From positions 1 through 64,000 of IMG/VR virus record IMGVR_UViG_3300046559_001153: a stretch of DNA of 64,000 nt; one strand, given 5' to 3'. Each line of letters starts with the position of its first letter. Within the stretch, counting starts at the first letter, position 1. This DNA is from a virus. The notes under the pieces are model-generated. The model was not told the origin of the DNA and ran no database searches. It worked only from the letters and a program-made list of their open reading frames with translations. The translations under genes and the position numbers were made by a program. Of the stretch, positions 6,874 to 55,994 are shown one piece after another.

Positions 6874-6874
6874 A

Positions 6875-8056: not shown

Positions 8057-8066
8057 AAGGTGCCCA

Positions 8067-33590: not shown

Positions 33591-34051
33591 AAATTTCTCG
33601 TGGCGCCGCACTTGATCGCTATTACTTGCTCAAGCTGTTTGGCTTCGGAATTTTTCTTCACCGAATTCATCACTCGGATCCTGGGGCTGTATACCTTGTG
33701 CCTCGATCGGGTGATGTAGCTCTGTATCACAGCCACCCGTGGAGTGGTTTGAGTCTCATTCTCGGCAGTTACGTGGAAATCCGGTACGGAGAGAATCCTA
33801 AACGACGTTGGTTATGGAACTGGATAAACGCCAAAGTGCATCATCGTGTTCTCATAGCTAAACCAGTTTGGACTCTGTTCATCCACCTGCCAAAGTCGAA
33901 TCGCTGGTCAGTCATTAACGAAAACGGCTGCGTGTTATCAGAGGAACCCTGGAAAGGTGATAAAGGGTTCAAAGATTATTCTGCATCAACCAATCTGTCT
34001 CACTCTCAAGAAGGAAACCATGCCTGCAACCATGTCCCCTCCCAAAAATAA
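33587..34051 (+). CDS. Cupin-fold protein
   Basis: 154 residues. The cupin-like core runs GAVYLVPRSGDVALYHSHPW (metal-site His-Ser-His), then SGLSLILGSYVEIRYGE, VHHRVLIAKPVWTLFIH and a Trp strand (RWSVINENG). The motif order and the His/Glu/His set fit a small single-domain cupin. Substrate unknown. The gene is coupled to the previous one by ATGA, and its last 32 nt overlap the next gene. Confidence 0.65.
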   Translation: MKISRGAALDRYYLLKLFGFGIFLHRIHHSDPGAVYLVPRSGDVALYHSHPWSGLSLILGSYVEIRYGENPKRRWLWNWINAKVHHRVLIAKPVWTLFIHLPKSNRWSVINENGCVLSEEPWKGDKGFKDYSASTNLSHSQEGNHACNHVPSQK

Positions 34052-35078
34052 GCGAGCGACGAAAACCGAAGAACTTCCCAATCAGCTGCACTTGCCTCTG
34101 GACGGCAAAGCCGATCTTTCCCCGGCCACCCAAATCCGAAGCGTATCGAGAGCCTTCCGCATCACGTTCAACGACATCGGCGGTAAGCGTCAACTTGACG
34201 ACAGTCAGAAGCTGCAGGTGTCGTCTGGATTTGACGCGAACATGGATCGCCTCGACTTGAGCAAGAAGCTCGTCAACGCCAAACACCCGGCCATCAAAAA
34301 GAAGAACGCAGCCAAATCGGAAATCCTGGCCTGCTTCAAATCAAGAACGCTACCCTACCCGGAAGCGGGCATCCGTCTGCTGCCGATACGATCTAAGGCG
34401 AGCGAAGAACAGTTGGCCGAGGTCGACTCGTTCACGACGCGTATCCGCGAACTGATCGAGAACTACTATTCAGCTGTGGCCGATCTACAGAATGAGTGGA
34501 CCAGCGTGGTCAACCAGGCCCGCAACGAACTGGGGACCCTGTTCAACGCGAACGACTACCCGACCAACGTGGTGGACCTGTTGACCTGCCACTTCGAACC
34601 GGTCAACGTTGAGTTGCCTGATTATTACAAGCATGTGTCGCCGGCAGAGTACAAGGCGGCCTGTGATCAGCTCAATCGCAAGTTCGAGGAAGCGGCTGAG
34701 ATGCAACGCGAGTTCGTTGCCAAGATGCTCAGCAACTCGGTCGAGCAGTTGGTCAAGTCGGTTACCGGTTTCCGAAAGGGCGAACAACGCTCGTTCCAGA
34801 ATTCGGTGGTAACCAACCTATTTGCCGCGTTCGACGAGTTCCGCGAGAAGACCAAGGTGTACGGAATTGGGGGTCGTGAGCTCGAGGATACAGTCGAACG
34901 GATTCGTGCTCTGCTGACCACCGACTCACGATCAAACAAGCTGCGTGCAGTTGACGTGCCGGATGAACTGCGTCGCGACGAGCAGTTCAGCAACCGGGTA
35001 ACGTCCGGCCTGCAAGAGCTGACCTCGCACCTGGCAACGCAGACCAGATCCCGCAGAACCCGTTTCCTCATGCGCTGA
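34020..35078 (+). CDS. Helical phage protein, DUF3150-like
   Basis: 352 residues from ATG 34020 (AGGAAA site). After a basic low-complexity start it has helix-rich segments (AKSEILACFKSRTLPYPEAG), a 'P.AGIRLLPI' turn, and a long coiled-coil-like region. The overall arrangement reminds me of DUF3150 phage proteins, but the match is weak. The C-terminus ends RRTRFLMR, loosely like the tag on the four genes near 43-45 kb. It may be a scaffold or nucleoprotein. Confidence 0.55.
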   Translation: MPATMSPPKNKRATKTEELPNQLHLPLDGKADLSPATQIRSVSRAFRITFNDIGGKRQLDDSQKLQVSSGFDANMDRLDLSKKLVNAKHPAIKKKNAAKSEILACFKSRTLPYPEAGIRLLPIRSKASEEQLAEVDSFTTRIRELIENYYSAVADLQNEWTSVVNQARNELGTLFNANDYPTNVVDLLTCHFEPVNVELPDYYKHVSPAEYKAACDQLNRKFEEAAEMQREFVAKMLSNSVEQLVKSVTGFRKGEQRSFQNSVVTNLFAAFDEFREKTKVYGIGGRELEDTVERIRALLTTDSRSNKLRAVDVPDELRRDEQFSNRVTSGLQELTSHLATQTRSRRTRFLMR

Positions 35079-35088
35079 AAGGCTGTCG

Positions 35089-35454
35089 ATGATGAAAACA
35101 AAAGGTGATCGTTTCATCGACGAGTTCTGGAGAGATTTCAGCGACTTGTCGAGATTCAAGATCTGCGAAGACCGTTGTGAGCCACTGAGAATCGTCTCTA
35201 TCGGTCTCGATACGGATATCGAGACGGGTGTCGTTCGACCGGCTATTACAGTTGAGCCGGCCGACGCCACCCCAGCCGACGTGGAAGGCAAACGGGTGAC
35301 TCTGCATGAGAACGTGCCAGTATACGATCCTGATTTTCATACGGCCGGAGAGCTGATCGAGATGTTGGTCGACACGCTCAAGTTGCCCGAGCCGGTCATT
35401 CGTGAACGGCTCAAGAAGGCCGGATTACTGGAGGACAGTCTTGACCAAACATGA
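35089..35454 (+). CDS. Hypothetical protein
   Basis: 121 residues (start at the first of two adjacent ATGs; GAAAGG site). Acidic, alternating strands and helices (RIVSIGLDTDIETGVVRP; PEPVIRERLKKAGLLEDSL). No family recognised. The 3' end overlaps the next gene's TTG start by 14 nt. Confidence 0.5.
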   Translation: MMKTKGDRFIDEFWRDFSDLSRFKICEDRCEPLRIVSIGLDTDIETGVVRPAITVEPADATPADVEGKRVTLHENVPVYDPDFHTAGELIEMLVDTLKLPEPVIRERLKKAGLLEDSLDQT

Positions 35455-35767
35455 GCTGCAGACGGTTTACGCAGTTTTTGGCACAACCTACGAAGAATAC
35501 GACGGCATCATGGTCAACGAATTTGACTACCTGGCCAGCGATTTGTATGCGGTGCAGGATGACGCGTTAGCTGAATTGGATCGCTTGCTGGAGCAGTTCT
35601 TCGCCGCTGAAGATCCGGTGAAATACGCAGACCCGGACATCATCGGTGATTGTTTCGGCGATTGGACGTGGGAAAAGCTGCGTATGTGTCCTGAATGGCA
35701 GGAGCCCTACGAGCTGAGGAAACTTACACTTCATCTGGAGAAAGTACAGTGCCCGGAGACAAAGTGA
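35441..35767 (+). CDS. Hypothetical acidic protein
   Basis: 108 residues from TTG 35441, chosen because GGAGGAC lies 5 nt upstream and longer starts lack a site. Strongly acidic and aromatic (FGTTYEEYDGIMVNEFDY). DNA mimicry or inhibitor roles can be imagined for such acidic small phage proteins, but nothing specific is seen. Confidence 0.5.
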   Translation: MTKHELQTVYAVFGTTYEEYDGIMVNEFDYLASDLYAVQDDALAELDRLLEQFFAAEDPVKYADPDIIGDCFGDWTWEKLRMCPEWQEPYELRKLTLHLEKVQCPETK

Positions 35768-36033
35768 TCGTACTCAACATCGCTAAGGGTGGTGCTGGGA
35801 AAATGCTCTATGACGAGGATCTCGATCTGGCCGCGGCAGGTCAAATCGAGATCAGTCGAGCTTCTCACGTAGAACCGACCGCCGACGGACAGTGGTCTGT
35901 GGACTTCTTGCCAATTGGCGTCAACCTGCAATTAGGCCCGTTCAAGCTGCGGTCAGAGGCCCTGGCAGCTGAACACAAGTGGCTGGATGACAATTACATC
36001 CGACCGTGGAAAGGTGATCGTGCTGAAACTTGA
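35749..36033 (+). CDS. Hypothetical protein
   Basis: 94 residues from GTG 35749 (GGAG site 9 nt upstream), overlapping the previous gene by 19 nt. A short N-terminal strand (DKVIVLNIAKGG) and a Lys/Trp-rich end (EHKWLDDNYIRPWKGD). No family recognised. Confidence 0.5.
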   Translation: MPGDKVIVLNIAKGGAGKMLYDEDLDLAAAGQIEISRASHVEPTADGQWSVDFLPIGVNLQLGPFKLRSEALAAEHKWLDDNYIRPWKGDRAET

Positions 36034-36334
36034 CCTATGCGATGGAAACATCGTTGTTGACACGGCTGATGGCAGTGGCTCAATCGGAAGCGATCTACCG
36101 GAAGCGTGCCCGGCCTGCGGGCACATGGCCTGCGAGTTTTACAGCTGTCCTGAGTCTCGAGCATCGCAGCCTCTTGACGCGGTCATTAGTCGACTTCAGT
36201 ACAACGCCGGTTGTGACGGAATCGAATCTCTCATTCTGGCTCTGGCTTGTGCCGGGTTTAACGTGGTTCATCCGGATTTCCAAACCGCTGTGCAGACAGC
36301 CCTTGATTCTGTCGCCAACCGTTTCGGAGACTGA
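36020..36334 (+). CDS. Small zinc-finger-like protein
   Basis: 104 residues from GTG 36020, preceded by GAAAGG. An acidic start is followed by EACPACGHMACEFYSCPE, four Cys and a His in 17 residues, a likely zinc knuckle, and then a helical domain (SRLQYNAGCDGIESLILALA). Overlaps the previous gene by 14 nt. Function unknown. Confidence 0.55.
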   Translation: MLKLDLCDGNIVVDTADGSGSIGSDLPEACPACGHMACEFYSCPESRASQPLDAVISRLQYNAGCDGIESLILALACAGFNVVHPDFQTAVQTALDSVANRFGD

Positions 36335-36336
36335 AA

Positions 36337-37227
36337 ATGGGACTGACCATTCATTGGGATTTGGAATTCGAAGGAGACAGACAAGAAGCCGTATGGATGA
36401 TGACCACGCTCGAGAATCGAGTTCGTGCTTTGCCGGTATTCCCGGCCCATCATGACTATGTCAACTTACGTTGCGGGCCGCCGGTGACTCGTGGTGGTGG
36501 ATTCGTAGATGGCGCCGTCACGGTGTATTACACCAGCCATTTTGGCGAATCTAAAAGCGAGTGGGTCAATCCCAAGTGGCACTGCGGCTTTCACGTTTTG
36601 CCTGGCGCGGGATGTGAGTCTCTTAATTTCGATCTCTACGAGTATCCAAAAACGGTTCGTGTGGCCACGTACTCGAATCACAAGCAATACCAGGTTGTGA
36701 AAGTCGGGCAGTCCGCCTTCAGCAGCTCCGGGTTTTGCAAGACTGTGTACGCTGGTAGTCCTGCGTCGGGTGGTAGCCCGGAGAACTTCTTGAAATGCCA
36801 TCTGCTTGTCTGCCGCGCGTTGGAGATAGCTTGCGAGCTGGGCTTCAAAGTTGACGTAAACGATGAGAGCGGATATTACGAGAACGAAAATCTGGATCTG
36901 CTCTTGCCGCAAGGCACGTCACTGCGGCGGGTCAGCGAATTGCCGGATGGCTGGTACCAGCGGCTCGATCCGGTCTTACGCCCAAACTATAAATTCGAAA
37001 AGCCCGAGGGCCCTGTTCGTCGTTTGACGAGGGCTGAGCGAGCCAACTACAGCGGCAACGACTACATCGGTTTTGAACCGTACAGCCCGGAAAAGTTCCC
37101 GGTCACAGGCCGCTTCTGGACTCGATCAGAACTCGATCTAGCTGACTACGACGTCACCCATTTAATCGATGCGTCTCCCGGTAGAAGAGCGCCTCGGATT
37201 TTGTTGCACAACTTTTCAAAAAGGTAA
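36337..37227 (+). CDS. Hypothetical protein, 'MGLTIHW' family
   Basis: 296 residues beginning MGLTIHWDLEFEGDRQEAVW, a start I recall from a widespread uncharacterised bacterial family often near AAA ATPase cassettes (recollection, not checked). The body is alpha/beta with many aromatic and Gly residues and several Cys/His (KWHCGFHVLPGAGC). The final codons (HNFSKR, stop) are built from an A/T dyad element. Function unknown. Confidence 0.55.
   Translation: MGLTIHWDLEFEGDRQEAVWMMTTLENRVRALPVFPAHHDYVNLRCGPPVTRGGGFVDGAVTVYYTSHFGESKSEWVNPKWHCGFHVLPGAGCESLNFDLYEYPKTVRVATYSNHKQYQVVKVGQSAFSSSGFCKTVYAGSPASGGSPENFLKCHLLVCRALEIACELGFKVDVNDESGYYENENLDLLLPQGTSLRRVSELPDGWYQRLDPVLRPNYKFEKPEGPVRRLTRAERANYSGNDYIGFEPYSPEKFPVTGRFWTRSELDLADYDVTHLIDASPGRRAPRILLHNFSKR
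37209..37226. repeat. A/T dyad element, copy 4
   Basis: CAACTTTTCAAAAAGGTA, forming the last codons (Asn-Phe-Ser-Lys-Arg) and overlapping the stop codon of the upstream gene. The 49.8-kb copy gives the same peptide end. Confidence 0.8.
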
Positions 37228-37248
37228 CTACATGAAGCAGGAAGTTCG

Positions 37249-38085
37249 TTGAGCAGTCTGCCGATCCTTAACCTGATCAGCAACCAAAACTCTAAGCTGG
37301 GCCCCAACGTCTGGGGTTTCAGCTTGCCGGCCGTTACGACTTGTCCAGGCAGCACAGCCCTCTGTAGGAGCCTGTGCTACGCCACACGGGGGCATTTCTC
37401 CTGGCCGGCAATGAAGAAAAAATTCCGTCGACAACTGGCGCTTGTGCGCAAGGGTCGATGGACGCAACTGCTTGAACACCAGTTGCGAGAAAATGGTGTG
37501 CGTACACTCCGCGTTCACGTGAGTGGCGATTTCTTTGACGCACCCTACATTCGTGAGTGGACCAAACTTGTCCGCCGAAACAGGCGTATTCAGTTCTTCG
37601 CGTACACGCGATCACACCGAGTCGCCAAGCTCCTGCCACTGCTTCTGCAGCTTGGCCGAGAGCCCAACTTTGTCCTGCACTTCTCGTATGACAAGGAAAC
37701 CGGTAGTCCCAAAATGTACCGCGGAATTCATTCCGCCTACATGATGATCGACGACCATGATTTGCCCGGCGCCCAGACAGACATTGTCTTCAGGGTAAGG
37801 CCGAAAACTGTAATGAAGCACACAACGGATGGATTGCTTGTTTGTCCCGTCGAGAACGGCGTGACGAACACGGCAGAGAAAAAGGGTTTGAGCTGCAGTA
37901 CATGTCAGATCTGCTTCTCTGCTCCGAAACTTCAAAAGCTGAAAAGGAAATTCTGCTATGTCAGTCGATCCCACAGAAGCCCCGAGACGCGAGCTTGTAG
38001 CCGAGCTAAACCAAGGCCCAGGCGACCGGTCCGCAGTCGAAGGCCAACACGGACAGTGTTGGAACACGCGGGAGCTGCAGACTGA
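37249..38085 (+). CDS. GP88-family protein
   Basis: 278 residues from TTG 37249, preceded by AGGAAG and by a 6-codon ATG mini-frame (MKQEVR) that ends at the same point. The N-terminus NSKLGPNVWGFSLPAVTTCP, then CRSLCYATRGHF, is the Cys-rich signature of the 'gene product 88' family of mycobacteriophages and others. A second Cys group (SCSTCQICF) follows. The family's biochemistry is unknown; a metal or iron-sulphur site is plausible. The last ~43 residues are Arg/Pro-rich and overlap the next gene in another frame. Confidence 0.7.
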   Translation: MSSLPILNLISNQNSKLGPNVWGFSLPAVTTCPGSTALCRSLCYATRGHFSWPAMKKKFRRQLALVRKGRWTQLLEHQLRENGVRTLRVHVSGDFFDAPYIREWTKLVRRNRRIQFFAYTRSHRVAKLLPLLLQLGREPNFVLHFSYDKETGSPKMYRGIHSAYMMIDDHDLPGAQTDIVFRVRPKTVMKHTTDGLLVCPVENGVTNTAEKKGLSCSTCQICFSAPKLQKLKRKFCYVSRSHRSPETRACSRAKPRPRRPVRSRRPTRTVLEHAGAAD

Positions 38086-38212
38086 CTTCGCGGTTTTGAC
38101 TTATCTGGCCCCGTTTGTCCACGTACGACGCCGGACGGACGGGGTAAAAGGCACGATGATGTTTACCTGCCATCCAAGGCTCTATTTCCAGTTTGAGCCA
38201 GATGACACGTAG
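37958..38212 (+). CDS. Hypothetical small protein
   Basis: 84 residues from ATG 37958 with an AAAGGAAA site. Starts MSVDPTEAPRRELVAELNQG and ends in a beta-rich segment (FVHVRRRTDGVKGTMMF; HPRLYFQFEPDDT). It overlaps the 3' end of the GP88-family gene by 128 nt in another frame; the coherent strand pattern favours this frame over the Arg-rich tail of its neighbour. Confidence 0.55.
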   Translation: MSVDPTEAPRRELVAELNQGPGDRSAVEGQHGQCWNTRELQTDFAVLTYLAPFVHVRRRTDGVKGTMMFTCHPRLYFQFEPDDT

Positions 38213-38338
38213 AGCAACCGCAGGCTTCCAGGCTGCCCCGGTGGCAGCCTGGTGGCCCGTTGCGGGTCTTATCGGGCGTTCGGACGGTCCGACGCGTCGT
38301 GGGGCATCCTAGAGCGTTGTTAAGATAGGGGGTTTGAG
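38213..38338 (+). other. GC-rich structured intergenic region
   Basis: No gene. It holds a perfect 10-bp hairpin CCAGGCTGCC-CCGGT-GGCAGCCTGG (38228-38252), then CCCG-TTG-CGGG, and then an imperfect stem GCGTTCGGAC/GTCCGACGC. No T tract follows any of them, so they are not obvious intrinsic terminators. They may form an mRNA leader or small RNA. Confidence 0.5.
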
Positions 38339-38626
38339 ATGGATATACCAGATCTGAAACTGAAGGCGTATGACCTGAAAGAGATGGAACCCGGATACAT
38401 TCACGGGCGTATCGATATCGGGCACACGTCACTGCACCTTGAGATGGTTCAGGTCATGGACGACGAAACCGAAGACGGTCCGGCTCAAGTGACCTGCGGT
38501 AGCGACGTGAATAACGACAGGTACGAAAGCCTGATGCACGTTCATTCCGGTGACGGCAAGGGCTACGAGACGATCTCGTGGGACGGCCGAGACTGGGTGA
38601 TCTACATTTTTCCGTTTGCGAGGTAG
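38339..38626 (+). CDS. Hypothetical small protein
   Basis: 95 residues, acidic, beta-rich (HGRIDIGHTSLHLEMVQVMD; SWDGRDWVIYIFPFAR). No family recognised. Preceded by a GGGGG-containing site and the structured gap, and followed by an A/T dyad shared with the convergent gene on the other strand. Confidence 0.5.
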   Translation: MDIPDLKLKAYDLKEMEPGYIHGRIDIGHTSLHLEMVQVMDDETEDGPAQVTCGSDVNNDRYESLMHVHSGDGKGYETISWDGRDWVIYIFPFAR

Positions 38627-38629
38627 CCG

Positions 38630-38647
38630 TAACTTTTCAAAAAGTTA
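38630..38647. repeat. A/T dyad element, copy 5
   Basis: TAACTTTTCAAAAAGTTA between two convergent genes. It includes the stop codon of the minus-strand gene, so it lies at the 3' end of transcripts from both sides. Confidence 0.85.
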
Positions 38648-39850
38648 AACGGGAGCCTGGACCTCGGCCAGCTTCTTGAGCTGTTCGGTGCTGAAGCCGA
38701 CCGGTCGGTAGGCGGCCTGCTTGATCACGGGGAAAATCCCACTGTCGCGCAACAGCTGGTCAAACAGGTGAGCATCCGGTTGGGGCAGAGTGGCTGCAAC
38801 TTCAGCCATCTTTTCCGGGTCGACATGCAACCCACTGCGAACGGCATCCACGATGTCATCCCCGAACACGGCGTGCAGATCGTCAAGCGGAACCCGCTCA
38901 AAGTCCTTCATCGCGTAGATCGAACCGGTAGTTGTCGCACAGTGCGAGTCTCGCCATTCGGCCACCTTGGTGATGGTCACGCCAAAACAAGCTTCTTCGG
39001 GTCGCAGAATGTTCTCGGTGTAACGACCAGACAGTCCGATCGCCTTGTCGACTTCGTCGAGAACTTGAGCGATCTTGAACTGCATATCCCTGTTGACTGC
39101 CAACGACGGCAGATTCTCTGTCGCATCGGCCAGCTTGGTCAGTCGTTCTCTCGTTGCCGATTCCTTGGCCAGTCGGGCACGCGTGCGGATGGCCGCGGCG
39201 ACGTGCTTGCCGGTGGACATCCCGCGGCAGGCGTGTTGTTCAAGCGGCTCGTACGCGTCTTCCAGGTCGGTACCCAGATCGGTTGCCCGTTTGAGAATCT
39301 TGTCGGCCACGACGTGTCGGTCGTTGAAAGCAAACGAATCGCGATACTGCAGGAACCAGTCGGCGGCCGCTTTGACTTCGTTGACGTTACGCAGTGGCAT
39401 GCGACGGGTCTTGGCGCCGGTAGCCTCGTCCACCCAGACGTAGGCGAACTGGCTGTCCGGCAATTGGTCACTCGCATCCTTGTAGAGCTCAGTGTGACGG
39501 ACGCGAATAGCGTCACAATGGGCCTTGATTCCGAAGTGCGAGGCTGATTTGGCCAATCGCTCATCGACCCAGGATGCTTCCTTGGTCGTGTATTCAGATC
39601 GTTTTTCGGTGAAGAAGAGCGAGCTCAACCATGTCTCCGCCGCCGTCTTGCAGGGGAACAGTCGGCGAACCGGATCACCATACACATTGACTGGCGGACG
39701 AGATGGTTGCAAAATTGTTTCAGCTGTCTTCTCGCTCTCCCCGGCTAGATAGGCCGTGACGAAGGCCGGAGCCGAATAGAGTTTACTCAGGCGATGCCAT
39801 TCGCGGCCCTGGGGATCGTGTGCGTGATCGAAAAGCGTCGCGTCAGCCAT
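38645..39850 (-). CDS. Hypothetical protein on the minus strand
   Basis: 401 residues, starting MADATLFDHAHDPQGREWHR with a GAGG site 6-7 nt upstream. Largely helical with charged surfaces (TGKHVAAAIRTRARLAKES; RLTKLADATENLPSLAVN). No signature I can name. It and the terminase are the only minus-strand genes in the window, so it may belong to the same expression class, for example a head or packaging protein, by orientation only. The 24-nt gap to the divergent primase-like gene leaves little room for separate promoters. Confidence 0.6.
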   Translation of the reverse strand: MADATLFDHAHDPQGREWHRLSKLYSAPAFVTAYLAGESEKTAETILQPSRPPVNVYGDPVRRLFPCKTAAETWLSSLFFTEKRSEYTTKEASWVDERLAKSASHFGIKAHCDAIRVRHTELYKDASDQLPDSQFAYVWVDEATGAKTRRMPLRNVNEVKAAADWFLQYRDSFAFNDRHVVADKILKRATDLGTDLEDAYEPLEQHACRGMSTGKHVAAAIRTRARLAKESATRERLTKLADATENLPSLAVNRDMQFKIAQVLDEVDKAIGLSGRYTENILRPEEACFGVTITKVAEWRDSHCATTTGSIYAMKDFERVPLDDLHAVFGDDIVDAVRSGLHVDPEKMAEVAATLPQPDAHLFDQLLRDSGIFPVIKQAAYRPVGFSTEQLKKLAEVQAPV

Positions 39851-39874
39851 TTTGACCTCGAAGCGAGAACTGAA

Positions 39875-42601
39875 ATGATCGAGTTGGGTTCACAGACCAA
39901 AGTCATCCACAAGAGTAAGCTCGTATCGCCCGACGTCAAGCTTGCCATTTCAGAAGTTCTGATGGCACTTGGGCTCCCGTCCGGGCCCAACGTTCTGCAG
40001 TCAAGCATAACCTGTCCGTTTTGCGATCACAAGCAATTCTACCTCTACTTGCTCTCCGACGGGGGCCATTGGCACTACTGTTTCGACTGCAAACGTAAGG
40101 GCGATCTGGTCGAGCTGGCGGCCGGTATCTGGCAATTGCCGATTCGAGACACGCTGGCCAGACTTCGAGACATGGCCTTGTTCACCGATACTCGAGCGTT
40201 AGACGCCATCATGCAAAATGAAAAAGAGATGGATCCGTGGAAGTATCGCCAGGCTATTATGGCTTTCTGGGAAACAGCGTCAGAACGCGCCCGGACCGGT
40301 AGTGGTGGGTCAACTCTCGGCGACCTGCGAAACAAATTGGGGATTCGACGTCTCGGCCAACGCCCTGACGTCTGGGCTGCCGGGCTCGGCCAACTGTTTG
40401 GCGAGACCACAGCAAAAGAGGCCCGAGCTCTAGCCCACCCAATTGAAGATTTTGCTGGCCAGAAGAGGATGCGAAGACGAGAGTGGAAGAATGTCCTTGT
40501 CTTGCCGTACTGCCAAGTACCCGAACATATTAGCGCGTTCCTGTTTGTAGGGCGGGAAGGGAAACAATCTCGAGGCGATCACAACTACCAGCCCCTAACA
40601 GCCCGCACGTACGACGAGGCGCCCGACGCCGGCTTGTGGGGGATGTCAACAGCCTGGACAGCCGGAGACGGCTGGCACGACTGCGTGCTGGCCCTCGAGG
40701 ATCCTGTTCTTGCTTTGAGATTGCAGCAACAGCATCTGTTGGCAAATCGTCTTCCGGTCCCCATCGTGTGCTGGTACGACAACGGAGCAATTAAATCGAC
40801 ACAGTGCTGGCGGACATTGCGGGGCAAAAGGGTTATCTTCGTCGCCGACACGTTGACACCCCGGCTGATGCAGCAAGTCAAAATTGCTCGCGGCGAACTT
40901 GTTATCTACGACACGACGTACGACGCCACGCGATTCTGGAAAGACACGTCGGCCAAAGACATGGTCCATCAGTTTTCGGCTACAGCCAAACCTTTAGGTG
41001 AGGCGATCGCTGACTGGCTGCGAACAGCCAAAGCCGTGGAGATAGAGGAACTTTGCCTGGCCTGCGAACGTGCCAATTTTGATCTGGAAGCCGAGTTAAA
41101 GGCGATCAACCGTCCTTTACTGGAAAGAGCCCGACAGTCGGCCGGGAAGACCGCTAACCGGCTGCCAACCATCCAGTTATCGAGAGACACTAAAGTCAAG
41201 CTCGCCATTACGGAATGCGAAAACGAATGGTTGATCAGTTCGCAGCGAACTAAGACCCAGGATGTCGGTTGTAACTGCGTCCTGCGAATCGACCGGACGA
41301 TTTTCTGCCCGGGGCTGGACTCCCCTATTTACGCCGGCCGAGTGTTATACAAAAAGGACGTCATCGACTTCCAGGTTTTGTCGTCGAGACTGGTTAAGGT
41401 CAAGTCTTGCCGATTGTGGCTGGCCAAGTTGCTATTGAAGCGTTTGGGGATCCCTCTTCAGGTCGATCGACGAATTGCCGGGGAGCTGCTGAAAATCGCG
41501 TTGATGTTCAGGCAGCCCGAACGGGTTGACAGTTCGCCGAGAGTGGGCTGGATCAATGACGGACAGCAATTTCAATTGCCCAATCTGACAATTGGAAGTT
41601 CCATTCAGACTCGACTCGTGAGGACGCGACTCGTTCCCGGCTTGAAATTCAAGAAGGTCGAACAACCTGATTTCTCCGGCATGAGAAACAATGAGTCGTC
41701 GCACGCGTTCTGGGCCCTCTTGTCGCTCGGTCTGGCCAACATCATTGCACCGCTACACGGGAAAGAGACAGCCGGGATAGGTCTTCTCGGTAAGGGCGCA
41801 TCTGAAATGGGCAGGTTAGTCGCTGAACACGCATTGGGGATAGCCCCGTTCCGCGGCGTGAGCAGCCTGGGTGAAACGACCGGGAAGATCAGAAAATTGG
41901 AATCGAGACACGCCTGGCCGGTCTACACGGACAAGGCCAGCGAGCAACCGTTTTACAAGCCGTGGCTCCAGTTGTACGGCGTTTCGAAAAACGCCATCGT
42001 ACCGCTCAGCCCGCGTTTGTCGAAGGGTTTGCCTCTTCTCGCCGCCTGGCGACTTGTGACAATCGAAGAGCCTCTCCGCGAGATGGCCTGGATGCGAACT
42101 GAGGGCGAAAAAATAGTTCCCTCCTACCTGGAACACATTTGTCAGAATCAGGTTCAGTTCAATCTTCGCAAGCACTGGGCCAAGGTCATCCTGGAAGATC
42201 TAGCTGAGTGGGTCGGTGAGCGCGAGGGCGATCCCGGGTGTGTGCTGGCTGCTACCAAATACTGGCGGCTCGACTTACCAGCCTCGCAGGGGAAGGCTGT
42301 ACTGGATGTTCTTTTAGCTGGCTACATGTCCGATCGAATAAGCAATGTCCGTATTGAATTTGAACGCACAGTCCGGCTTGGTGTTTTTACAGTAGAAAAT
42401 GAGTCTGAACGTTACCTGATCGTGCCACCGTCTGCCTTCATCAAGTCGGCCGACCGATTGGGACTTGGCGTACTCTCTCCGGCCATAGCCGAGAAAGCTC
42501 TCGCCGATGCTGGCTACCTGTTGGGGCATCAAACCACGGGCCCGCGAACTGGGTGGCGAGTAAATCTGGACGTCTGGAACGATTGTTTGAAAGGATTATA
42601 G
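39875..42601 (+). CDS. CHC2-zinc-finger primase/helicase-like protein
   Basis: 908 residues from ATG 39875 (an upstream in-frame start would overlap the divergent gene). Residues ~45-85 form a CHC2-type zinc finger (TCPFCDHKQFYLYLL, then HYCFDCKRKGDLVELA), as in DnaG-like primases. Residues ~270-350 have a Toprim-like alternation (VLALEDPVLALR; RGKRVIFVADTLTP). Near residue 634, AGIGLLGKGASEMG resembles a P-loop, but Gly replaces the Ser/Thr after Lys. It may be a diverged primase-helicase. The window also encodes a separate, more typical primase, so the two proteins probably have different jobs. Confidence 0.6.
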   Translation: MIELGSQTKVIHKSKLVSPDVKLAISEVLMALGLPSGPNVLQSSITCPFCDHKQFYLYLLSDGGHWHYCFDCKRKGDLVELAAGIWQLPIRDTLARLRDMALFTDTRALDAIMQNEKEMDPWKYRQAIMAFWETASERARTGSGGSTLGDLRNKLGIRRLGQRPDVWAAGLGQLFGETTAKEARALAHPIEDFAGQKRMRRREWKNVLVLPYCQVPEHISAFLFVGREGKQSRGDHNYQPLTARTYDEAPDAGLWGMSTAWTAGDGWHDCVLALEDPVLALRLQQQHLLANRLPVPIVCWYDNGAIKSTQCWRTLRGKRVIFVADTLTPRLMQQVKIARGELVIYDTTYDATRFWKDTSAKDMVHQFSATAKPLGEAIADWLRTAKAVEIEELCLACERANFDLEAELKAINRPLLERARQSAGKTANRLPTIQLSRDTKVKLAITECENEWLISSQRTKTQDVGCNCVLRIDRTIFCPGLDSPIYAGRVLYKKDVIDFQVLSSRLVKVKSCRLWLAKLLLKRLGIPLQVDRRIAGELLKIALMFRQPERVDSSPRVGWINDGQQFQLPNLTIGSSIQTRLVRTRLVPGLKFKKVEQPDFSGMRNNESSHAFWALLSLGLANIIAPLHGKETAGIGLLGKGASEMGRLVAEHALGIAPFRGVSSLGETTGKIRKLESRHAWPVYTDKASEQPFYKPWLQLYGVSKNAIVPLSPRLSKGLPLLAAWRLVTIEEPLREMAWMRTEGEKIVPSYLEHICQNQVQFNLRKHWAKVILEDLAEWVGEREGDPGCVLAATKYWRLDLPASQGKAVLDVLLAGYMSDRISNVRIEFERTVRLGVFTVENESERYLIVPPSAFIKSADRLGLGVLSPAIAEKALADAGYLLGHQTTGPRTGWRVNLDVWNDCLKGL

Positions 42602-42603
42602 GG

Positions 42604-42876
42604 ATGTTGACGCAGATTCACGTGAACCAACATGTCATTCGAAAAAACAAGAAAACGGGGAAACGGGCGCCTGTGCTGACGGTCAAAACGTCTAAAGGCG
42701 TTCTACGAGGAAACAGAGTCATAGCGCCGGGGTTTGAGGTGGTCTACCAGCCTGACGATCCGTTGAGCTGCGGTGCTCACGTCTGGGTCGAGACAACTGA
42801 TGATGTTGTTGTTCAGCAGAGAACGAGAACCAAGCGACGTCGATGCCAGCGAGTCCCTGTCAAACCGAAGGATTAG
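42604..42876 (+). CDS. Small basic protein
   Basis: 90 residues from ATG 42604, directly after the primase-like gene. Highly basic at both ends (RKNKKTGKRAPVLTVKTSKG; RTRTKRRRCQRVPVKPKD) with a compact central beta segment, suggesting nucleic-acid binding. It does not carry the C-terminal tag of the next four genes but ends where the first of them begins. Confidence 0.55.
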   Translation: MLTQIHVNQHVIRKNKKTGKRAPVLTVKTSKGVLRGNRVIAPGFEVVYQPDDPLSCGAHVWVETTDDVVVQQRTRTKRRRCQRVPVKPKD

Positions 42877-43332
42877 ATGACCACCCTCGACGATCTTCAG
42901 TTGTTAATCACGCTGCCGGAAAAGGGGAAGAAGTCCGTCAAGCTCGACGAGGGCCGAGTCACCTGGCGGGGCAACTCGGGCGGCTGCCGAGTCGGGACGG
43001 TCATGTTCCAGTTCGACGCCATAGAAACGACAGTTTACATTCCCCGATTGTACGGCGGACGTAAGATGTTGAAGATGCTCATGGAGCTGGTCAACCAACC
43101 GAGTTGTACTCTTTACGACGTCTGTTTCACGCAGATTGACGATTTGTTCGTGAAGTTTGACCAGATGGAAGCATCCAACGCAGAGAAGTACATGCCGACA
43201 GGCCAGATGGGTACAATACACGGACTCACATTACAACGGTTCCACCTGCCAAATATGTCGCACATCGCTATCGGACCTCAGCCGGAAGACAGGCGTTGGG
43301 GAACTGGTGGTAGAAGGGTTATCATCCGATGA
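42877..43332 (+). CDS. Hypothetical protein, C-terminal RRVIIR tag (1 of 4)
   Basis: 151 residues, alpha/beta, with no recognised domain (WRGNSGGCRVGTVMFQFDAI; SCTLYDVCFTQIDDLFVKFD). The final residues GTGGRRVIIR match the ends of the next three proteins. Starts immediately after a stop codon, and its TGA overlaps the next ATG (ATGA). It is the first member of a four-gene set defined by the tag and by coupling. Confidence 0.65.
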   Translation: MTTLDDLQLLITLPEKGKKSVKLDEGRVTWRGNSGGCRVGTVMFQFDAIETTVYIPRLYGGRKMLKMLMELVNQPSCTLYDVCFTQIDDLFVKFDQMEASNAEKYMPTGQMGTIHGLTLQRFHLPNMSHIAIGPQPEDRRWGTGGRRVIIR

Positions 43333-43658
43333 GCGATGACGAGGCCACACTGAACGATGACCAGGTGCGCGAGTTGAATACAGCATTCTTCGAGGCGTTG
43401 GCTCTACCGGCGGATTCGCCCGGGCATCGCCTGGTGGCGGATTGTGCCAACGATTTTACTCGCATGCGAATGCTTGAATCGGGACTCATACGAAGTTTAT
43501 TTCCGCCGATCCCGATAGACGGAGAGCCTCAACTTGTGACCACGCCATCGAGTTTTCCAAATCCATTGTTTGGATACTGGGACACGTCGCTCGGAGAACC
43601 GTACAAACCACGGCGGTCAGTCTGGCAACGGCCTAATAGAAGGATAATCATCCGATGA
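43329..43658 (+). CDS. Hypothetical protein, C-terminal RRIIIR tag (2 of 4)
   Basis: 109 residues, acidic and helical at the start (NDDQVRELNTAFFEALALPA). It then becomes Pro-rich and loop-like (PSSFPNPLFGYWDTSLGEPY), ending WQRPNRRIIIR. No known domain. The Pro-rich region followed by the tag suggests a flexible C-terminus that presents the tag. ATGA couplings on both sides. Confidence 0.65.
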   Translation: MSDDEATLNDDQVRELNTAFFEALALPADSPGHRLVADCANDFTRMRMLESGLIRSLFPPIPIDGEPQLVTTPSSFPNPLFGYWDTSLGEPYKPRRSVWQRPNRRIIIR

Positions 43659-44014
43659 GACGTTTTGAATGCGTAGCCGGAAGCGCCAATAAATTCTGGG
43701 AGGTCCGCGTCGACGGTGTCAGAGTACACGTCCGGTTCGGCCGACGCGGCACAAACGGTCAGTCCGAAACAAAAACCATGGATACCCCGGCGGCAGCTCA
43801 GCGGTACATGAACACTAAGATCAACGAGAAGCGTAGAAAAGGGTATGTGGAGATTGTTCCCACTGCGCGACCCATCCTGCGGGTGTCTCCAGCCGTCGAA
43901 TCGCCGCGGAGACGTGAGACGGCGAGTGCTCCGCCAGTCGCCCAACAAACTGCAAACGCTGCCAGGGCCAACAGACAATTCGACACCACGAAGAAACGGA
44001 TTATCCTGCGATGA
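43655..44014 (+). CDS. WGR-domain protein, C-terminal KRIILR tag (3 of 4)
   Basis: 119 residues. Residues ~5-70 match the WGR domain (NKFWEVRVDGVRVHVRFGRR, GTNGQSETKTMDTPAAAQRY, then EKRRKGYVEI), with Phe for the Trp of the name motif. WGR domains in PARPs and bacterial regulators bind nucleic acid or protein partners. A Pro/Arg/Ala-rich linker follows, ending TTKKRIILR. The linker plus tag after a compact domain again looks like a presented targeting peptide. ATGA coupling on both sides. Confidence 0.75.
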   Translation: MRRFECVAGSANKFWEVRVDGVRVHVRFGRRGTNGQSETKTMDTPAAAQRYMNTKINEKRRKGYVEIVPTARPILRVSPAVESPRRRETASAPPVAQQTANAARANRQFDTTKKRIILR

Positions 44015-45051
44015 CCAACGTTCTCAGGGGGTGGGCTGCAAATACGAATTCGCCGGACTTCCGTGCAGAAATTTCCCAATCGACAACGCCAGGCTACGGG
44101 CCGACAAGGCAAGCAGCTGCACCAACTGGAGATCAATCGATGCCAGTCTACGAAGAAAGAAGAGTTAACGATCACCCGGCATTCGCGATGGCACAGGCTC
44201 AGATGAGGGGACTGAATCGCACATTTGGTGATTTTCGCGACCGCCGTATTTATCATTTGACGCTCGGTCACGCCGTACTTCGTTTTGGGCAAGATCCGAC
44301 GCGGCGAGCAATGGCCTATAATCTACGGATAAGCCGCGTCGACTCCTTGAACTACATAGCCATTGAAGCTCCGAATGTCGTATTGCTGCCTAGCGTAGCT
44401 ACCTGGCTTGTCGCAAATGATTTGTTTGGCGAGCTGAACATTCTCGATCCCCACGCTGGCAGCATGACTTTTTCTAATTGCCGACTTTCGAGGGTGGGCA
44501 CAGGAATTCTCGGCCGAACAGGCGCAGGACAGGCGGTCCAGACCATTGACGGTATTTCGATCTTTTGTAGCAATGGAGACGTGGTTGTAGACGCGGCAGC
44601 CTTGCCTGGACCGTCGCCCGGACTGTTGCCTTCAGGCAGCTCGTTAGGCGAGGCGAGTTTGCGGCTGCTGCACGGCGATCAGCCCAACCTTCATCCTCCA
44701 CAGGTTATAGGAGCGATCCAGGCGGATGGCAGTTGGGTGTCCGTCCCGCCACCGTCATCTGCCCCGCAGGACATAGGAGCGATCCAAGCGTTCCGAGCGG
44801 CAGAGTCTGGCAGGTGGTCGCCCATCAACCCGCCGTTGTCCGCTCCGCCAGTACAGTCACAGGAATACGCCGACTACTCTGATCGGGTGGCGGACGCCGA
44901 AGGAGGGCAGCTTTACTCGCCGGAAGAGCTTAATCGCCGGGCCTGGGCCTTAGTAGATCAGGCTCAACAGAACCTAAAACGCCAGGAAGCCGTGCAGGCA
45001 AGAAAGGCCCGAGTGTGGAACAAGACGACAAAACGCATTGTAATTCGTTGA
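44011..45051 (+). CDS. Hypothetical protein, C-terminal KRIVIR tag (4 of 4)
   Basis: 346 residues, the largest of the tagged set. The N-terminal ~60 residues are loop-rich. A beta-solenoid-like middle follows (YHLTLGHAVLRFGQDPTRRA; VVLLPSVATWLVANDLFGEL), then two similar segments (VIGAIQADGSWVSV, DIGAIQAFRAAESG), a Pro/Ser linker and a helical end with WNKTTKRIVIR. No enzyme motif is seen. It could be the structural partner that the other tagged proteins join, but that is speculation. Confidence 0.6.
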   Translation: MTNVLRGWAANTNSPDFRAEISQSTTPGYGPTRQAAAPTGDQSMPVYEERRVNDHPAFAMAQAQMRGLNRTFGDFRDRRIYHLTLGHAVLRFGQDPTRRAMAYNLRISRVDSLNYIAIEAPNVVLLPSVATWLVANDLFGELNILDPHAGSMTFSNCRLSRVGTGILGRTGAGQAVQTIDGISIFCSNGDVVVDAAALPGPSPGLLPSGSSLGEASLRLLHGDQPNLHPPQVIGAIQADGSWVSVPPPSSAPQDIGAIQAFRAAESGRWSPINPPLSAPPVQSQEYADYSDRVADAEGGQLYSPEELNRRAWALVDQAQQNLKRQEAVQARKARVWNKTTKRIVIR

Positions 45052-45572
45052 ACCTGCGTAACTGGCTCAACACGTTGGTCCGCCGCATCAAGGTGGCTGT
45101 GTTCGGCCGTCAAAATTTGCCGGTCGTTGAGCCAGAATCACGTACCTACGACCAGATCGAGGCCGCACTAGCTTTCGACACTAGGGTCCTACAAGAGTAC
45201 ACTGACGCGCGATATCGACAACTAGCCCACCTGCGAGGACTCCGCGACTCTCGGACGGTTGTATTTCCGGGACATGAGGTGATCATTAACGGAATCGATT
45301 GGTCGGCCACAGGCCACCAGACGATGCAAGCACGCTGGGAAGCCATGGCCGCTCGCGAGTTGCAGACTAGTGAAGACAGCCGGCTTATTGAGCAGTTGCC
45401 GGCTTCCAAGCAAACTGACACCAAAATTACGCCTCCCCATCCCACTCCCAAACGAGCGGTTCACTGGGTTCCAGGTAAGCCTCGAGTTCTCCTTCGAGAG
45501 CGTACTTCTGCGAGTTCGCCAGATTCGGCCAGCGACCCTGGCTGTGCCACAGAGCCACGCAGCCCATGTTGA
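45015..45572 (+). CDS. Hypothetical protein overlapping terminase antisense
   Basis: 185 residues from GTG 45015 (AAAGG site 7 nt upstream); a TTG at 45048 overlapping the previous stop is an alternative start. The first ~135 residues are helical (IEAALAFDTRVLQEYTDARY). The last ~45 residues run antisense through the 3' end of the terminase gene and are Ser/Pro/Arg-rich, so they are probably incidental. No family recognised and no tag. Confidence 0.5.
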   Translation: MEQDDKTHCNSLNLRNWLNTLVRRIKVAVFGRQNLPVVEPESRTYDQIEAALAFDTRVLQEYTDARYRQLAHLRGLRDSRTVVFPGHEVIINGIDWSATGHQTMQARWEAMAARELQTSEDSRLIEQLPASKQTDTKITPPHPTPKRAVHWVPGKPRVLLRERTSASSPDSASDPGCATEPRSPC

Positions 45573-47280
45573 CGGCCTGGGCGAAGTCGTCGGGGTGCAT
45601 GGGGTTCTTGCCGATCGTGTAGGCTTCTTTTCCGAATCGTGTCGGAATCTTCTCTTCGACGAGCGACAGGAAGTCGTTCATCAGGCCTTCATGATCCTTG
45701 TCCAGGTAGTCGTACTGGAAGAACCGGATCTCGCAGTTCTTGATCTGTTGGCACGTCAGCAAGAGGCTGCGAGCCTTGTCGACCTGCCAGTGCTCCTTGG
45801 GGTGCTTCTCAGTCGCCAGCTTGAAGGTGAGGATATTCGCAAAGGCTGCACGAACGTAGGCGACCGGCATGATCCTCGACTGGGGCATACCTGTATGCAG
45901 CAGGAATGTTTCACGTAACGACCCGGCGCCCGTGTAGTCATGCACAAGAGCGTCGCACTTGAAGACGCGGAAGAATCTGGCAGCCATCTGAGCTTCGACA
46001 ACGTGTTCAGACGGGTTCAACGATCGATGCCCGTAGATCACGTCAATCTTTCCGTCCGGCAGCATGCCCATGACGGCAAAGGTTGTGAAGCTCTGGAACC
46101 TCTCACCTACGGCACCCCAGTCAACAGACAGGATGACCTTGATGTAGTCCCCTCGAGGAACCATTTCGGCCTGCTCAAACGTATTGCGGTGCGGGAGACT
46201 GGCCGCTCGTTTGAGGTCCGTTCGTGTGACCAGCTTGGTTCCCGTATCGGAGCTCTCGCCCAGGATTTCGTTGTGGAAGATGGCTTGGGTCATGTTGCCA
46301 GCGCCAGCCTGTCTGGCCAGTAGTTCGGCCCATTTTTCCCGGCTTGCATAGTGGGCCGGGAAAATAATCTGCGGCATGTGGTACCCGGCCATCGTTTGCC
46401 GTTTGTCAGCCACCTGGTGGATCCACCAGCCGTTTCTCGGATCGACTGGCTTGCGACATTTGGCACAGATGGTGCCCGGCCGCCTTGGACCGATGTCTGG
46501 GTGCCACGGTCCGAGCATCTTCTCCAGGTCGTGTGTCAGCGCGGGCACGTTGTCGTAATGGCATGCGTCGCACGGTACGATCCATTCGGCCATGCTGGAC
46601 GACGACCAGAGACCCTCGAGCGTGTTATCGAGAGTCAACGGAGTTCCGGTGTACAGCTCCCAGCCCCAGCGCGAGTAGGCCATAACCTGGGTGATCACAC
46701 CGATCAACGAACTGTCCAGGTTTTGAACTTCGTCAAAATTGATCTCGTCGCCCGACACGCCGCGGATACGATTCGCGTCACGAAAGGCAAAACTGAAAAT
46801 CATCATCGATTTGTTGCGGAATGTTTTCTGCAGCACGCTGCCGTTGCTCTTGCTGTTGACGAACAGCGTTCGCACGGGCGAATCGTTGATGAACGGCTCG
46901 ACGTAGTTTGTCGAGAACCGGCGAATCTGCTCGAACAGGGGAGTAACTGTGAGCAGCTTGAAATGCTTAATCGCATTGCACCGAGCCAGACCGATCGCGG
47001 CCAGACTGGTCGATTTTGAGATCTGGCGACCCGCCTTAACGACGGTCACTTTTGGTGAATGCGTTTTGAATAACGGCTCGAACGGAAAATGGTCATCGAG
47101 CGAATAAGGTTTTCCGTTCAGTGTGAACAAACTCGACAGAATCGGCCGCAACGTAGGGATATGCGTCTGTTCGAAAAATCGCAATTCCTTTTTGAGCTTC
47201 GCGAGCTCACGTTTAGAAAGCGGTGGTTTCTTTCTCGGCCCCTCATCCTTTTCAGGAGACAAAATTGCGTCCAAATCCAT
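45427..47280 (-). CDS. Terminase large subunit
   Basis: 617 residues. ATPase part: Walker A-like KAGRQISKST (~82-91) as in phage packaging motors, and Walker B INFDEVQNL (~178-186). A zinc-ribbon insertion (CDACHYDN, then CAKCRKPVDP) lies at ~237-280. The RNase H-like nuclease part has SVDWGAVGE (~391), HDYTGAG (~450) and HPDDFAQAVN (~570), supplying the acidic metal ligands. This enzyme cuts concatemeric DNA and pumps it into the capsid. It is transcribed against its neighbours and overlaps the preceding + gene by 146 nt at their 3' ends. Confidence 0.9.
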   Translation of the reverse strand: MDLDAILSPEKDEGPRKKPPLSKRELAKLKKELRFFEQTHIPTLRPILSSLFTLNGKPYSLDDHFPFEPLFKTHSPKVTVVKAGRQISKSTSLAAIGLARCNAIKHFKLLTVTPLFEQIRRFSTNYVEPFINDSPVRTLFVNSKSNGSVLQKTFRNKSMMIFSFAFRDANRIRGVSGDEINFDEVQNLDSSLIGVITQVMAYSRWGWELYTGTPLTLDNTLEGLWSSSSMAEWIVPCDACHYDNVPALTHDLEKMLGPWHPDIGPRRPGTICAKCRKPVDPRNGWWIHQVADKRQTMAGYHMPQIIFPAHYASREKWAELLARQAGAGNMTQAIFHNEILGESSDTGTKLVTRTDLKRAASLPHRNTFEQAEMVPRGDYIKVILSVDWGAVGERFQSFTTFAVMGMLPDGKIDVIYGHRSLNPSEHVVEAQMAARFFRVFKCDALVHDYTGAGSLRETFLLHTGMPQSRIMPVAYVRAAFANILTFKLATEKHPKEHWQVDKARSLLLTCQQIKNCEIRFFQYDYLDKDHEGLMNDFLSLVEEKIPTRFGKEAYTIGKNPMHPDDFAQAVNMGCVALWHSQGRWPNLANSQKYALEGELEAYLEPSEPLVWEWDGEA

Positions 47281-53843: not shown

Positions 53844-55994
53844 ATGCTACTTAAGCGTTTGACACTTCGTAACATTGGCGTTCACCAGAAATTGGACATT
53901 ACGTTCAAGCCGGGGTTGGTTGGCATCTTCGGTGCCAACGGGGCCGGCAAGTCGACAATCACTAACTCTGCTTACGCTTGCCTGACTAATGACTTCTCCA
54001 GGTTTCCAGGTACTCGAGATCAAATTATCAATGATCAGTCCCAACCCGGCGATCTGGCAGAGATCGCTTGTGATCTGGATATCGATGGTGTCGAGTACTC
54101 ACTGAAACGTGAGCTCGGCCGTAGCAAGTGTCGCATGGAATTTACTCGCCCCGGGCAGCCGCGGCAGCGAATCGACAAAGACGGAGAATTCCAGCAAGCC
54201 CTCTTCAGCGCTTTGGGATTTCCGAGAGATGTGCTCGACAACTTCGTGTTCATCGACCAGTGGGAGACGTTCGCCTTTCTCAAAGCGACACCGGCCAAAC
54301 GAATGATGGCCTTTCACGGGTTGTGCAATACGGGCAAGGCTGAGCGGATCTGGGACGCGGTTGGTCAACGGATTGCCGCCGATGCCAGTCTTGTGGCTGA
54401 CGTACAGGACAACCTGGCTGAGTTTCGTAAACAGAAGGACGACACGGCGGCCGAGTATGTGAGACAACACACGGCGCTCGCCAGCATGTTGCAGGTCGGG
54501 CCTGTGGTTTTGGCTGATCTCCAGCAGAAGGTTAATGATCTGACGGCGTTGGCTAACCTGCGAGAGAATCTGCGTGAGGCTGAGGAAGCTTTGGCCAGTG
54601 CAGCTGCCTCTTCTCTGGCGGCTGCCACCAAATTGTTGCCGGTCAAGAAGGAGCGTGACCGGTTGCAGTCGGCTGTGGATGCAATCGACACGTCGACAGC
54701 TGAGAAGTGCGTGCCCATTCTGCAGGAGTACATCCTGCAGCAGCGGCAGGTCGCCGAGGACAAGCAGCAGATCGATGAGCTGGCTGAGTTCCTGGCTGAC
54801 ATGGCCCAGGAGCCTGAGCTGGAGCTGCCGGAAGGAATCACGTACGAGCCGATGGAAGAGATCAACAAGCGGTTGATCCTGAACAAGGCCGAACTGGCGA
54901 CGGCCAAGGCCTATGTGAAGAATTTCACAAAATCACCCAAGTGTCCCACCTGCGGTCAGGATGCGACTATGCTACTGGCTAAATACCAGAAGACTGTCGA
55001 CGAGTTGCCAGAGCAGATCCAGCAGGACGAAGAGACGGTCGAATGCATCGCTGATTTCAACGCTGACGTGGTCGTTTTCAGACAACAGGTGTCGGATGCC
55101 CAAGCTAAACTGGGCGCGTTGCGCACGCGTTTGGATAACGCAACGCTCGTCGTTCTAGACGATCCGCACTGGGTGACGGAACCGTTGGCCGCCCTCGAGG
55201 ATTTCAAGCTCACGATCGCCAGACGCAAGTTGGCTGAGGTTGCTCTGGCGACGTATGTCAAGTTGACGCTCACTCCAGCAGAGGCTAAGGCCAACGTGGC
55301 TAAGGGGGCTGTAGCTCCGGCAGAGAAACGCGTGGTTAAACTGACGGCCGATTTGCTCATCTACGGCGAAGCCAGTGCTGACGATTTGCCCGCGGTCAAA
55401 GAGGCATTGGCCACAGCAGTCGCCGCCAATAACAGATACACGACTGCTCATGCGTTGGCCAAAGCTGCCAAAACGACAGCTGAAAACGCTGCAGCGGCGT
55501 ACAAGCGGGCTAAGCAGTCCCTCGAGGATGCCCGCCAGCGTTCCCGGGTGGCCCGCTTGTGGCTTGAGCGGCTGGAAAAGGTCCGAGAGGTCTTTCACAG
55601 AGACGGAGCTCCCAAGCTGGTCGCCCAGAGCCGTCTGGAGAGCCTTGAGGACGATATCAACTTGTTCCTTGAGCCATTCGGCAGCCCGTTCACGGTCAGG
55701 GCGGGCGAGGATTTCAACTTGCTGGCTCAAGTCCCCGGGCACTCTGAACGAGAAGCCACCTGGCTTAGCGGGGGACAAAAGGTCGTCCTGTCGATGGCCT
55801 TCTTGCTGTCACAAAGCCCCGGCATGCTGGTGCTTGATGAGCCTGGCGCAGGCCTGGACACCGCGAACAGGGCCTACCTGCGTACGGCCTTGCAGCATTT
55901 CCAGTCAGTTGCGAAAAGTCGCGGGTTGCAGATCATCATGATCACTCATGACGAAAGCATGGAGAGCTCGTTCAACCAGGTCATTCAGTTGTAA
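53844..55994 (+). CDS. SbcC/Rad50-like ATPase (gp46-like)
   Basis: 716 residues. Walker A GIFGANGAGKST (~28-39). Long coiled coils flank a zinc hook SPKCPTCGQD (~364-373). Then come the ABC signature WLSGGQKVVLSMAF (~639) and Walker B MLVLDEPGAGLD (~661), and a D-loop/H-region MITHDES. With the SbcD-like nuclease it forms an end-processing complex. Shorter than bacterial SbcC and near T4 gp46 size, as expected for a phage. Its TAA stop opens an A/T dyad element. Confidence 0.9.
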   Translation: MLLKRLTLRNIGVHQKLDITFKPGLVGIFGANGAGKSTITNSAYACLTNDFSRFPGTRDQIINDQSQPGDLAEIACDLDIDGVEYSLKRELGRSKCRMEFTRPGQPRQRIDKDGEFQQALFSALGFPRDVLDNFVFIDQWETFAFLKATPAKRMMAFHGLCNTGKAERIWDAVGQRIAADASLVADVQDNLAEFRKQKDDTAAEYVRQHTALASMLQVGPVVLADLQQKVNDLTALANLRENLREAEEALASAAASSLAAATKLLPVKKERDRLQSAVDAIDTSTAEKCVPILQEYILQQRQVAEDKQQIDELAEFLADMAQEPELELPEGITYEPMEEINKRLILNKAELATAKAYVKNFTKSPKCPTCGQDATMLLAKYQKTVDELPEQIQQDEETVECIADFNADVVVFRQQVSDAQAKLGALRTRLDNATLVVLDDPHWVTEPLAALEDFKLTIARRKLAEVALATYVKLTLTPAEAKANVAKGAVAPAEKRVVKLTADLLIYGEASADDLPAVKEALATAVAANNRYTTAHALAKAAKTTAENAAAAYKRAKQSLEDARQRSRVARLWLERLEKVREVFHRDGAPKLVAQSRLESLEDDINLFLEPFGSPFTVRAGEDFNLLAQVPGHSEREATWLSGGQKVVLSMAFLLSQSPGMLVLDEPGAGLDTANRAYLRTALQHFQSVAKSRGLQIIMITHDESMESSFNQVIQL

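Follow-up and report, generated by a model that had tools for sequence, protein, structure and literature searches.

Four adjacent, overlapping genes (g1 to g4) of a tailed phage end in a common C-terminal peptide, hereafter the tag, and two of them, g2 and g4, appear by sequence comparison to open with N-terminal segments of the phage's own capsid genes. These capsid arms on two tagged proteins are what is new here. The reading that we favor, tentatively and at slightly less than even confidence, is that g1-g4 form an accessory operon addressed to the capsid, with the tag as its docking peptide.

The tagged genes and their locus

The window, that is, the whole stretch of DNA that was analysed (64,000 nt), runs from base 1 to base 64000 of a virus record of 224,270 bp. 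The record is that of a tailed phage, with a TerL of PHROG 675, a baseplate wedge protein and an HK97-type major capsid protein (MCP). The tagged genes lie in the interval between a primase-like gene and terL, with the following features (window coordinates):

39794..42601, + strand, primase-like gene with a weak CHC2/DnaG zinc finger, syntenic in relatives; left border of the variable interval
42604..42876, + strand, g0, untagged, in the same operon (PHROG 8676, E 4e-15; 46% relative in locus L013)
42877..43332, + strand, g1, 151 aa, no homologue recognised for its body, C-terminus RWGTGGRRVIIR
43294..43329, + strand, tag of g1, RWGTGGRRVIIR
43329..43658, + strand, g2, 109 aa, capsid N-arm, Pro/charged linker and tag
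43620..43655, + strand, tag of g2, VWQRPNRRIIIR
43655..44014, + strand, g3, 119 aa, WGR domain, Pro-rich linker and tag
43976..44011, + strand, tag of g3, QFDTTKKRIILR
44011..45051, + strand, g4, 346 aa, decoration-type arm, uncharacterised middle, Pro-rich repeats, predicted C-terminal helix and tag
45013..45048, + strand, tag of g4, VWNKTTKRIVIR
45048..45572, + strand, g5, TTG start inside the TTGA overlap with g4, 3' part antisense to the tail of terL
45427..47280, - strand, terL, terminase large subunit (PHROG 675, E 1e-56); right border of the variable interval

Short overlaps couple the genes, ATGA at the ends of g1, g2 and g3 and TTGA at the end of g4. The primase-terL interval of relatives ranges from 0 to ~5 kb and differs in gene content as well as size and is, therefore, a variable accessory site; in one relative (locus L013, 11885-13394, - strand) it is filled by three tandem Cys-rich paralogues (CxxCG...). 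The codon scores of g2-g4 fall below the calling level of a simple gene caller and the third-position GC of g2 and g4 (0.56) is ~1.4 SD under the phage mean of 0.64, values that are compatible with rapid turnover. Elsewhere in the window (53844-55994), an SbcC/SMC-like ATPase (PHROG 77, Pfam SMC_N) is encoded close to replication genes.

The last six residues of the proteins read RRVIIR (g1), RRIIIR (g2), KRIILR (g3) and KRIVIR (g4). A six-frame scan of the whole 224,270-bp record (13,257 stops) found [KR][KR][IVLMF]{3}R directly before a stop at four sites only, those of g1-g4, and the pattern [KR]R[IV][IV][ILV]R did not occur beyond the four tags in 66,725 residues. The likeness reaches over all 12 residues of the tags listed above, position -11 being W or F, and gives the extended consensus [WF]x4[KR]R[IV][IV][IL]R-COOH. 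Among 38,503 gene pairs, four of the six top-scoring pairs of C-terminal 12-mers are pairs of tagged genes. The gene ends, the ATGA and TTGA overlaps and the six-frame uniqueness confirm the preliminary description of this DNA, which had reported four consecutive coupled genes with a common C-terminal tag.

The bodies of these proteins had also been described as unrelated. They have no mutual similarity, and residues 5-67 of g3 match the Pfam WGR domain (PF05406, E 1e-16; 61.2 bits against a curated cut-off of 22) and PDB 2ra8 (E 8e-8); WGR is usually a nucleic-acid-associated domain. The description needs amending for g2 and g4, which share their opening segments with capsid genes (see below). 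We found no match for g1 in IMG/VR, phage records, Pfam, PHROGs or 15 TerL relatives, no homologue of g3 in IMG/VR or phage records, and none of g4 in IMG/VR, phage records, GTDB genomes or the TerL and MCP relatives searched. AlphaFold models built from single sequences of g1 (pLDDT 34, unusable) and g4 (mean pLDDT 36) were not used for fold searches; the one part of the otherwise unusable g4 model with higher confidence is a putative long helix (pLDDT 65-81) directly before the tag.

A further stretch resembling the tag is found within g5:

45462..45497, + strand, degenerate fifth tag in g5, HWVPGKPRVLLR, followed by 24 further residues

Scored with a profile built from the four tags, HWVPGKPRVLLR ranks sixth best among the 64,392 12-mers of the proteome. 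It is preceded by a Pro-rich linker and lies inside the overlap in which g5 is antisense to the last ~50 codons of terL (45427-45572). We lean toward a decayed tag, in a gene whose stop was lost, over a chance likeness.

Capsid-gene segments at the N-termini of g2 and g4

The MCP of the phage (record 192566-193504) was identified by PHROG 2522 and PDB 6wkk ('Gp27 major capsid protein'). The immediate upstream neighbour of its gene (record 191956-192498) is referred to as the decoration protein candidate and another (record 190165-191427) as the scaffold candidate, both names having been assigned by gene order. Segments related to the first two of these genes open g2 and g4:

43359..43517, + strand, MCP N-arm inside g2 (residues 11-63), sharing 49% identity with the MCP of this phage
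44017..44088, + strand, N-terminal segment of the MCP-adjacent decoration candidate in g4 (residues 3-26), 13/24 identical

The g2 segment matched the N-arm of the phage's own MCP by blastp (E 3e-11). An MCP N-arm match was also obtained by tblastn (E 3e-10), with a profile built from 86 MCPs (E 3e-9) and, by phmmer, with the MCPs of other phages (E 1e-7 to 0.03). Its nearest relative is the phage's own MCP (27/55 versus <=23/55 for the others). By sequence, then, the N-terminus of g2 is homologous to the MCP N-arm. A full HK97 fold is absent from this 109-aa protein, the MCP profile match stopping at residue 64.

Residues 3-26 of g4 align to residues 13-36 of the decoration candidate with a pairwise score of 73 (next best, 38), which none of 20,000 shuffles reached; the pair ranks sixth among the phage's 38,503 N-terminal pairs and is recovered by tblastn with an E value of 0.002. 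A profile of the decoration-candidate family also returned g4 as its best non-self match, with an E value (0.48) so weak that the homology of the g4 arm rests on the pairwise evidence. Further, g4 shares the lineage-specific GWAANxN with the phage's own decoration-position protein. The decoration-position gene adjoins the MCP gene upstream in 50/50 relatives, in the same order as gp26-gp27 of phage G, where gp26 is annotated as capsid decoration; the protein itself is not meaningfully matched by gp26 (E 6.3) or by any entry of PDB or Pfam. An all-against-all profile test revealed no other N-terminal graft above noise in g1, g3 or g5.

Tag and arms in related phages

Relatives were collected as 15 loci by TerL search and 80 by MCP search, and 50 MCP relatives were scanned for the tag. 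None of the 15 TerL relatives carries it, and the 50 MCP relatives yielded two matches only, both to a single off-consensus sequence, KSVMLR. IMG/VR was scanned twice with degenerate-codon patterns that cover part of codon space, which returned 17 and 53 stretches and no locus with two clear tags; nearly all of the stretches are tiny junk ORFs, and a lone KKRIIMR ends a 498-aa stop-to-stop frame. A wider phage C-terminal signal was rejected on these grounds, nothing similar having appeared in these relatives or in either IMG/VR scan. Within the records searched, the tag belongs to four adjacent genes of one operon only.

A second MCP N-arm in non-MCP ORFs was found in at least three related phages (G065, G030 and G036). 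In G065, it lies in one of five tandem paralogues (E 2e-9; locus L279, G065 90000-104000, with the five genes at 4603-7289), which have the pattern GVLC...WW..LP...LADLL..gAPW and of which only the fifth carries the N-arm; their common C-terminus was rejected as a tag since the five genes are true tandem paralogues. The G030 case is a complete MCP-like N-arm in the middle of a 348-aa protein encoded in the head region, ~3 kb downstream of the MCP gene (E 8e-14; locus L278, reverse strand of G030 33000-47000, at 7814-8860). In G036 (E 5e-4; locus L281, reverse strand, 4546-5847), the second half of a 433-aa protein contains NDFTRARMREDSWVPPIMPP, a stretch that resembles the N-arm, with the clear motif DFTRARMRE..PPIMPP. 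Weaker cases were seen in G028, G023 and G014. The presence of N-arm grafts in several related phages makes arm grafting recurrent in the group; the tag is not.

Intein-like inserts were also seen. An 871-aa head-region protein of the G000 record (187518-190133; L008 4518-7133) contains one (Pfam Hint_2, LAGLIDADG) that is apparently missing in the homologues of G005, G014 and G013, and the terminase large subunit in locus L012 (8066-11332) is apparently split by another (1088-aa ORF).

Possible addressing of the operon to the capsid

As we read these data, g1-g4, probably with the decayed g5, would constitute an accessory operon in the variable primase-terL interval whose products go to the capsid or procapsid of the phage. 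The peptide [WF]x4[KR]R[IV][IV][IL]R, which follows a flexible linker or a helix, would dock all members on one partner, which we infer to be the capsid or capsid-bound, most likely the shell itself or a shell-bound protein. The MCP N-arm of g2 and the decoration-position arm of g4 would plug into the same lattice, and the tagged proteins would become part of virions, inside them or on their surface, or influence assembly. The shared sorting or docking signal that had been proposed from the sequence keeps its putative docking role, which is well supported, and gains a moderately supported link to the capsid from the arms of g2 and g4. Against the capsid count the absence of a recognisable capsid part in g1 and g3, the usual association of the WGR domain of g3 with nucleic acids, and the position of the operon, which adjoins the primase-like gene and not the head genes.

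If the tag does dock to the capsid, proteins could be loaded into a large phage capsid, or made to decorate it, by way of a portable C-terminal peptide that occurs naturally on four different cargoes. The grafted MCP N-arms are capsid-assembly interfaces copied into accessory proteins. Such copying may explain how extra proteins are placed in or on large-phage heads, or how head assembly is interfered with, and is checkable over dozens of known genomes. It is conceivable, if rather doubtful, that this jumbo phage has a modular capsid-addressing code that combines a common C-terminal docking peptide with grafted capsid arms, and that the insertion of MCP N-arms into otherwise unrelated proteins is a recurrent device by which the phage group loads or decorates its virions or interferes with capsid assembly.

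Instead of addressing the capsid, the tag could be a docking or recognition peptide with a non-capsid partner: an adaptor or degron of regulated proteolysis, a complex of replication or of the terminase, or a hub on which the four proteins are gathered. The location of the operon between the primase-like gene and terL and the WGR domain of g3 would suit such a partner, and a C-terminal peptide that is short, basic-hydrophobic and preceded by linkers suits many. This explanation leaves unaccounted for the two of four tagged proteins that start with arms of adjacent capsid genes, and we consider it rather unlikely.

Somewhat less probable, in our judgement, is that g2 and g4 are decoys, that is, dominant-negative or size-altering capsid mimics directed against competing phages or satellites in the manner of capsid-piracy proteins, with the tag recruiting an effector or directing assembly. 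The closeness of the g2 arm to the phage's own MCP and the GWAANxN that g4 shares with its own decoration-position protein would fit mimicry, as would two precedents: the capsid-redirecting protein CpmB has a RIIK-type C-terminus and Ccm is an MCP homologue (PMC5644958, PMC6893505). The genes are, however, in the phage and not in a satellite, and the island has no other satellite-like genes. Nor did PADLOC detect a described anti-phage defence or counter-defence system, its only match being a weak one of g3 to a WGR model (E 3e-6).

Conservation of the tag as a peptide

The codons of the tags bear on whether peptide or DNA is conserved. Codon comparisons across the tags gave 11 identical codons, 12 synonymous ones and 13 conservative replacements. 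Conservation is highest at second codon positions (32/36) and lowest at third positions (19/36), and the g3 and g4 tags have many silent differences, every amino-acid change being a K/R or I/V/L exchange. Over the last 21 nt, g1 and g2 are identical at 19/21 positions and g4 matches the other tags at 13-15/21, whereas the 72 nt 5' of the tags match at 15-25/72, approximately the chance level. With the upstream DNA unrelated and the codons different, the tag is conserved as a peptide. The preliminary description had argued for peptide selection from synonymous differences, an argument that holds for the codons of g3 and g4 and is weak for g1 and g2, whose near-identity makes this pair alone no argument for it. 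At the level of sequence, selection on the tag peptide is well supported.

That same near-identity of the g1 and g2 tag DNA lends some credit to the proposal that the tag has no sorting function and is a leftover, spread by tandem duplication and recombination at the 3' ends of the genes, or marks tandem paralogues with diverged or replaced bodies. The five tandem paralogues of G065 share their C-terminus by descent and one of them has an N-arm graft, as such a history would have it. We regard this origin as distinctly unlikely for g1-g4, given that their bodies are mutually dissimilar (one is a WGR domain), that the DNA likeness ends sharply at the tag, and that g3 and g4 keep the peptide despite their silent differences.

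Very unlikely is a nucleotide signal in which a Shine-Dalgarno sequence (AGAAGG) and the overlapping start couple translation and the peptide is a by-product. AGAAGG does lie 10 nt upstream of the next ATG in g1 and g2, and the terminal Arg codon lies within CGATGA. However, the tag is absent from all 26 other 4-bp-overlap junctions of the phage (0/26), on which basis a Shine-Dalgarno origin was rejected; no Shine-Dalgarno sequence of this kind accompanies the tags of g3 and g4, neither the aromatic residue nor the I/V/L pattern is necessary for one, and the ranking of codon positions, second first and third last, also argues against it. Chance has a negligible claim even for so short a motif, since the strict form is expected from composition at p = 1.1e-5 per gene, or 0.003 such genes among 278, against the four observed, all adjacent.

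Comparison with known systems

The statement in the preliminary description that no signal of this form had been described is too strong, because a C-terminal capsid-docking hook precedes it (PMC5644958). The peptide RIIK, with a helix before it, forms the C-terminus of two different proteins, the 80alpha scaffold and SaPI1 CpmB, and the hook binds a cleft of the capsid protein beside the N-arm; point mutations in it are lethal (PMC5644958). The tag is alike in being a basic-Ile-Ile-basic peptide at the very C-terminus of proteins with different bodies, and differs in its additional hydrophobic residue, its aromatic residue at -11 and its occurrence in four or five adjacent genes. It ends in R-[IV]-[IV]-[IL]-R, which is similar to RIIK, not RIIK itself, and shows no sequence homology to it. 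The scaffold candidate (190165-191427) ends in ITEIVSRSASIK and has no tag, nor do its homologues in relatives, so the tag was not copied from a hook of the phage's own scaffold. Derivation from the E-loop or from any other part of the MCP was likewise rejected, the best 12-mer of the phage's own MCP scoring 7.75 against 32-38 for the tags. At most by analogy, the tag may work as the RIIK hook does, without belonging to that family.

Encapsulin cargo-loading peptides are short, C-terminal peptides that follow a flexible linker on various cargoes and dock these to an HK97-fold shell. Like them, the tag is short, stands at the C-terminus behind a flexible linker and is found on proteins of different kinds; its consensus is different and the phage has no encapsulin.

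The capsid-derived segments have parallels of their own. Ccm of SaPIbov5 is an accessory protein derived from a capsid protein and homologous to MCPs (PMC6893505). Ccm has the whole capsid fold and is encoded by a satellite, whereas g2 has the arm only and is encoded by the phage itself. In P74-26, the E-loop of the neighbouring subunit is clamped by two elements, a Dec-arm of ~23 aa and an MCP N-arm of 52 aa (PMC6775164). The N-termini of g2 and g4 appear homologous to the phage's own MCP and MCP-adjacent segments, which form the arms in P74-26; here, the arms head small tagged accessory proteins rather than capsid and decoration proteins. Since Dec-arm and N-arm together clamp the E-loop in P74-26, g4 and g2 appear to carry both arm elements of the capsid lattice.
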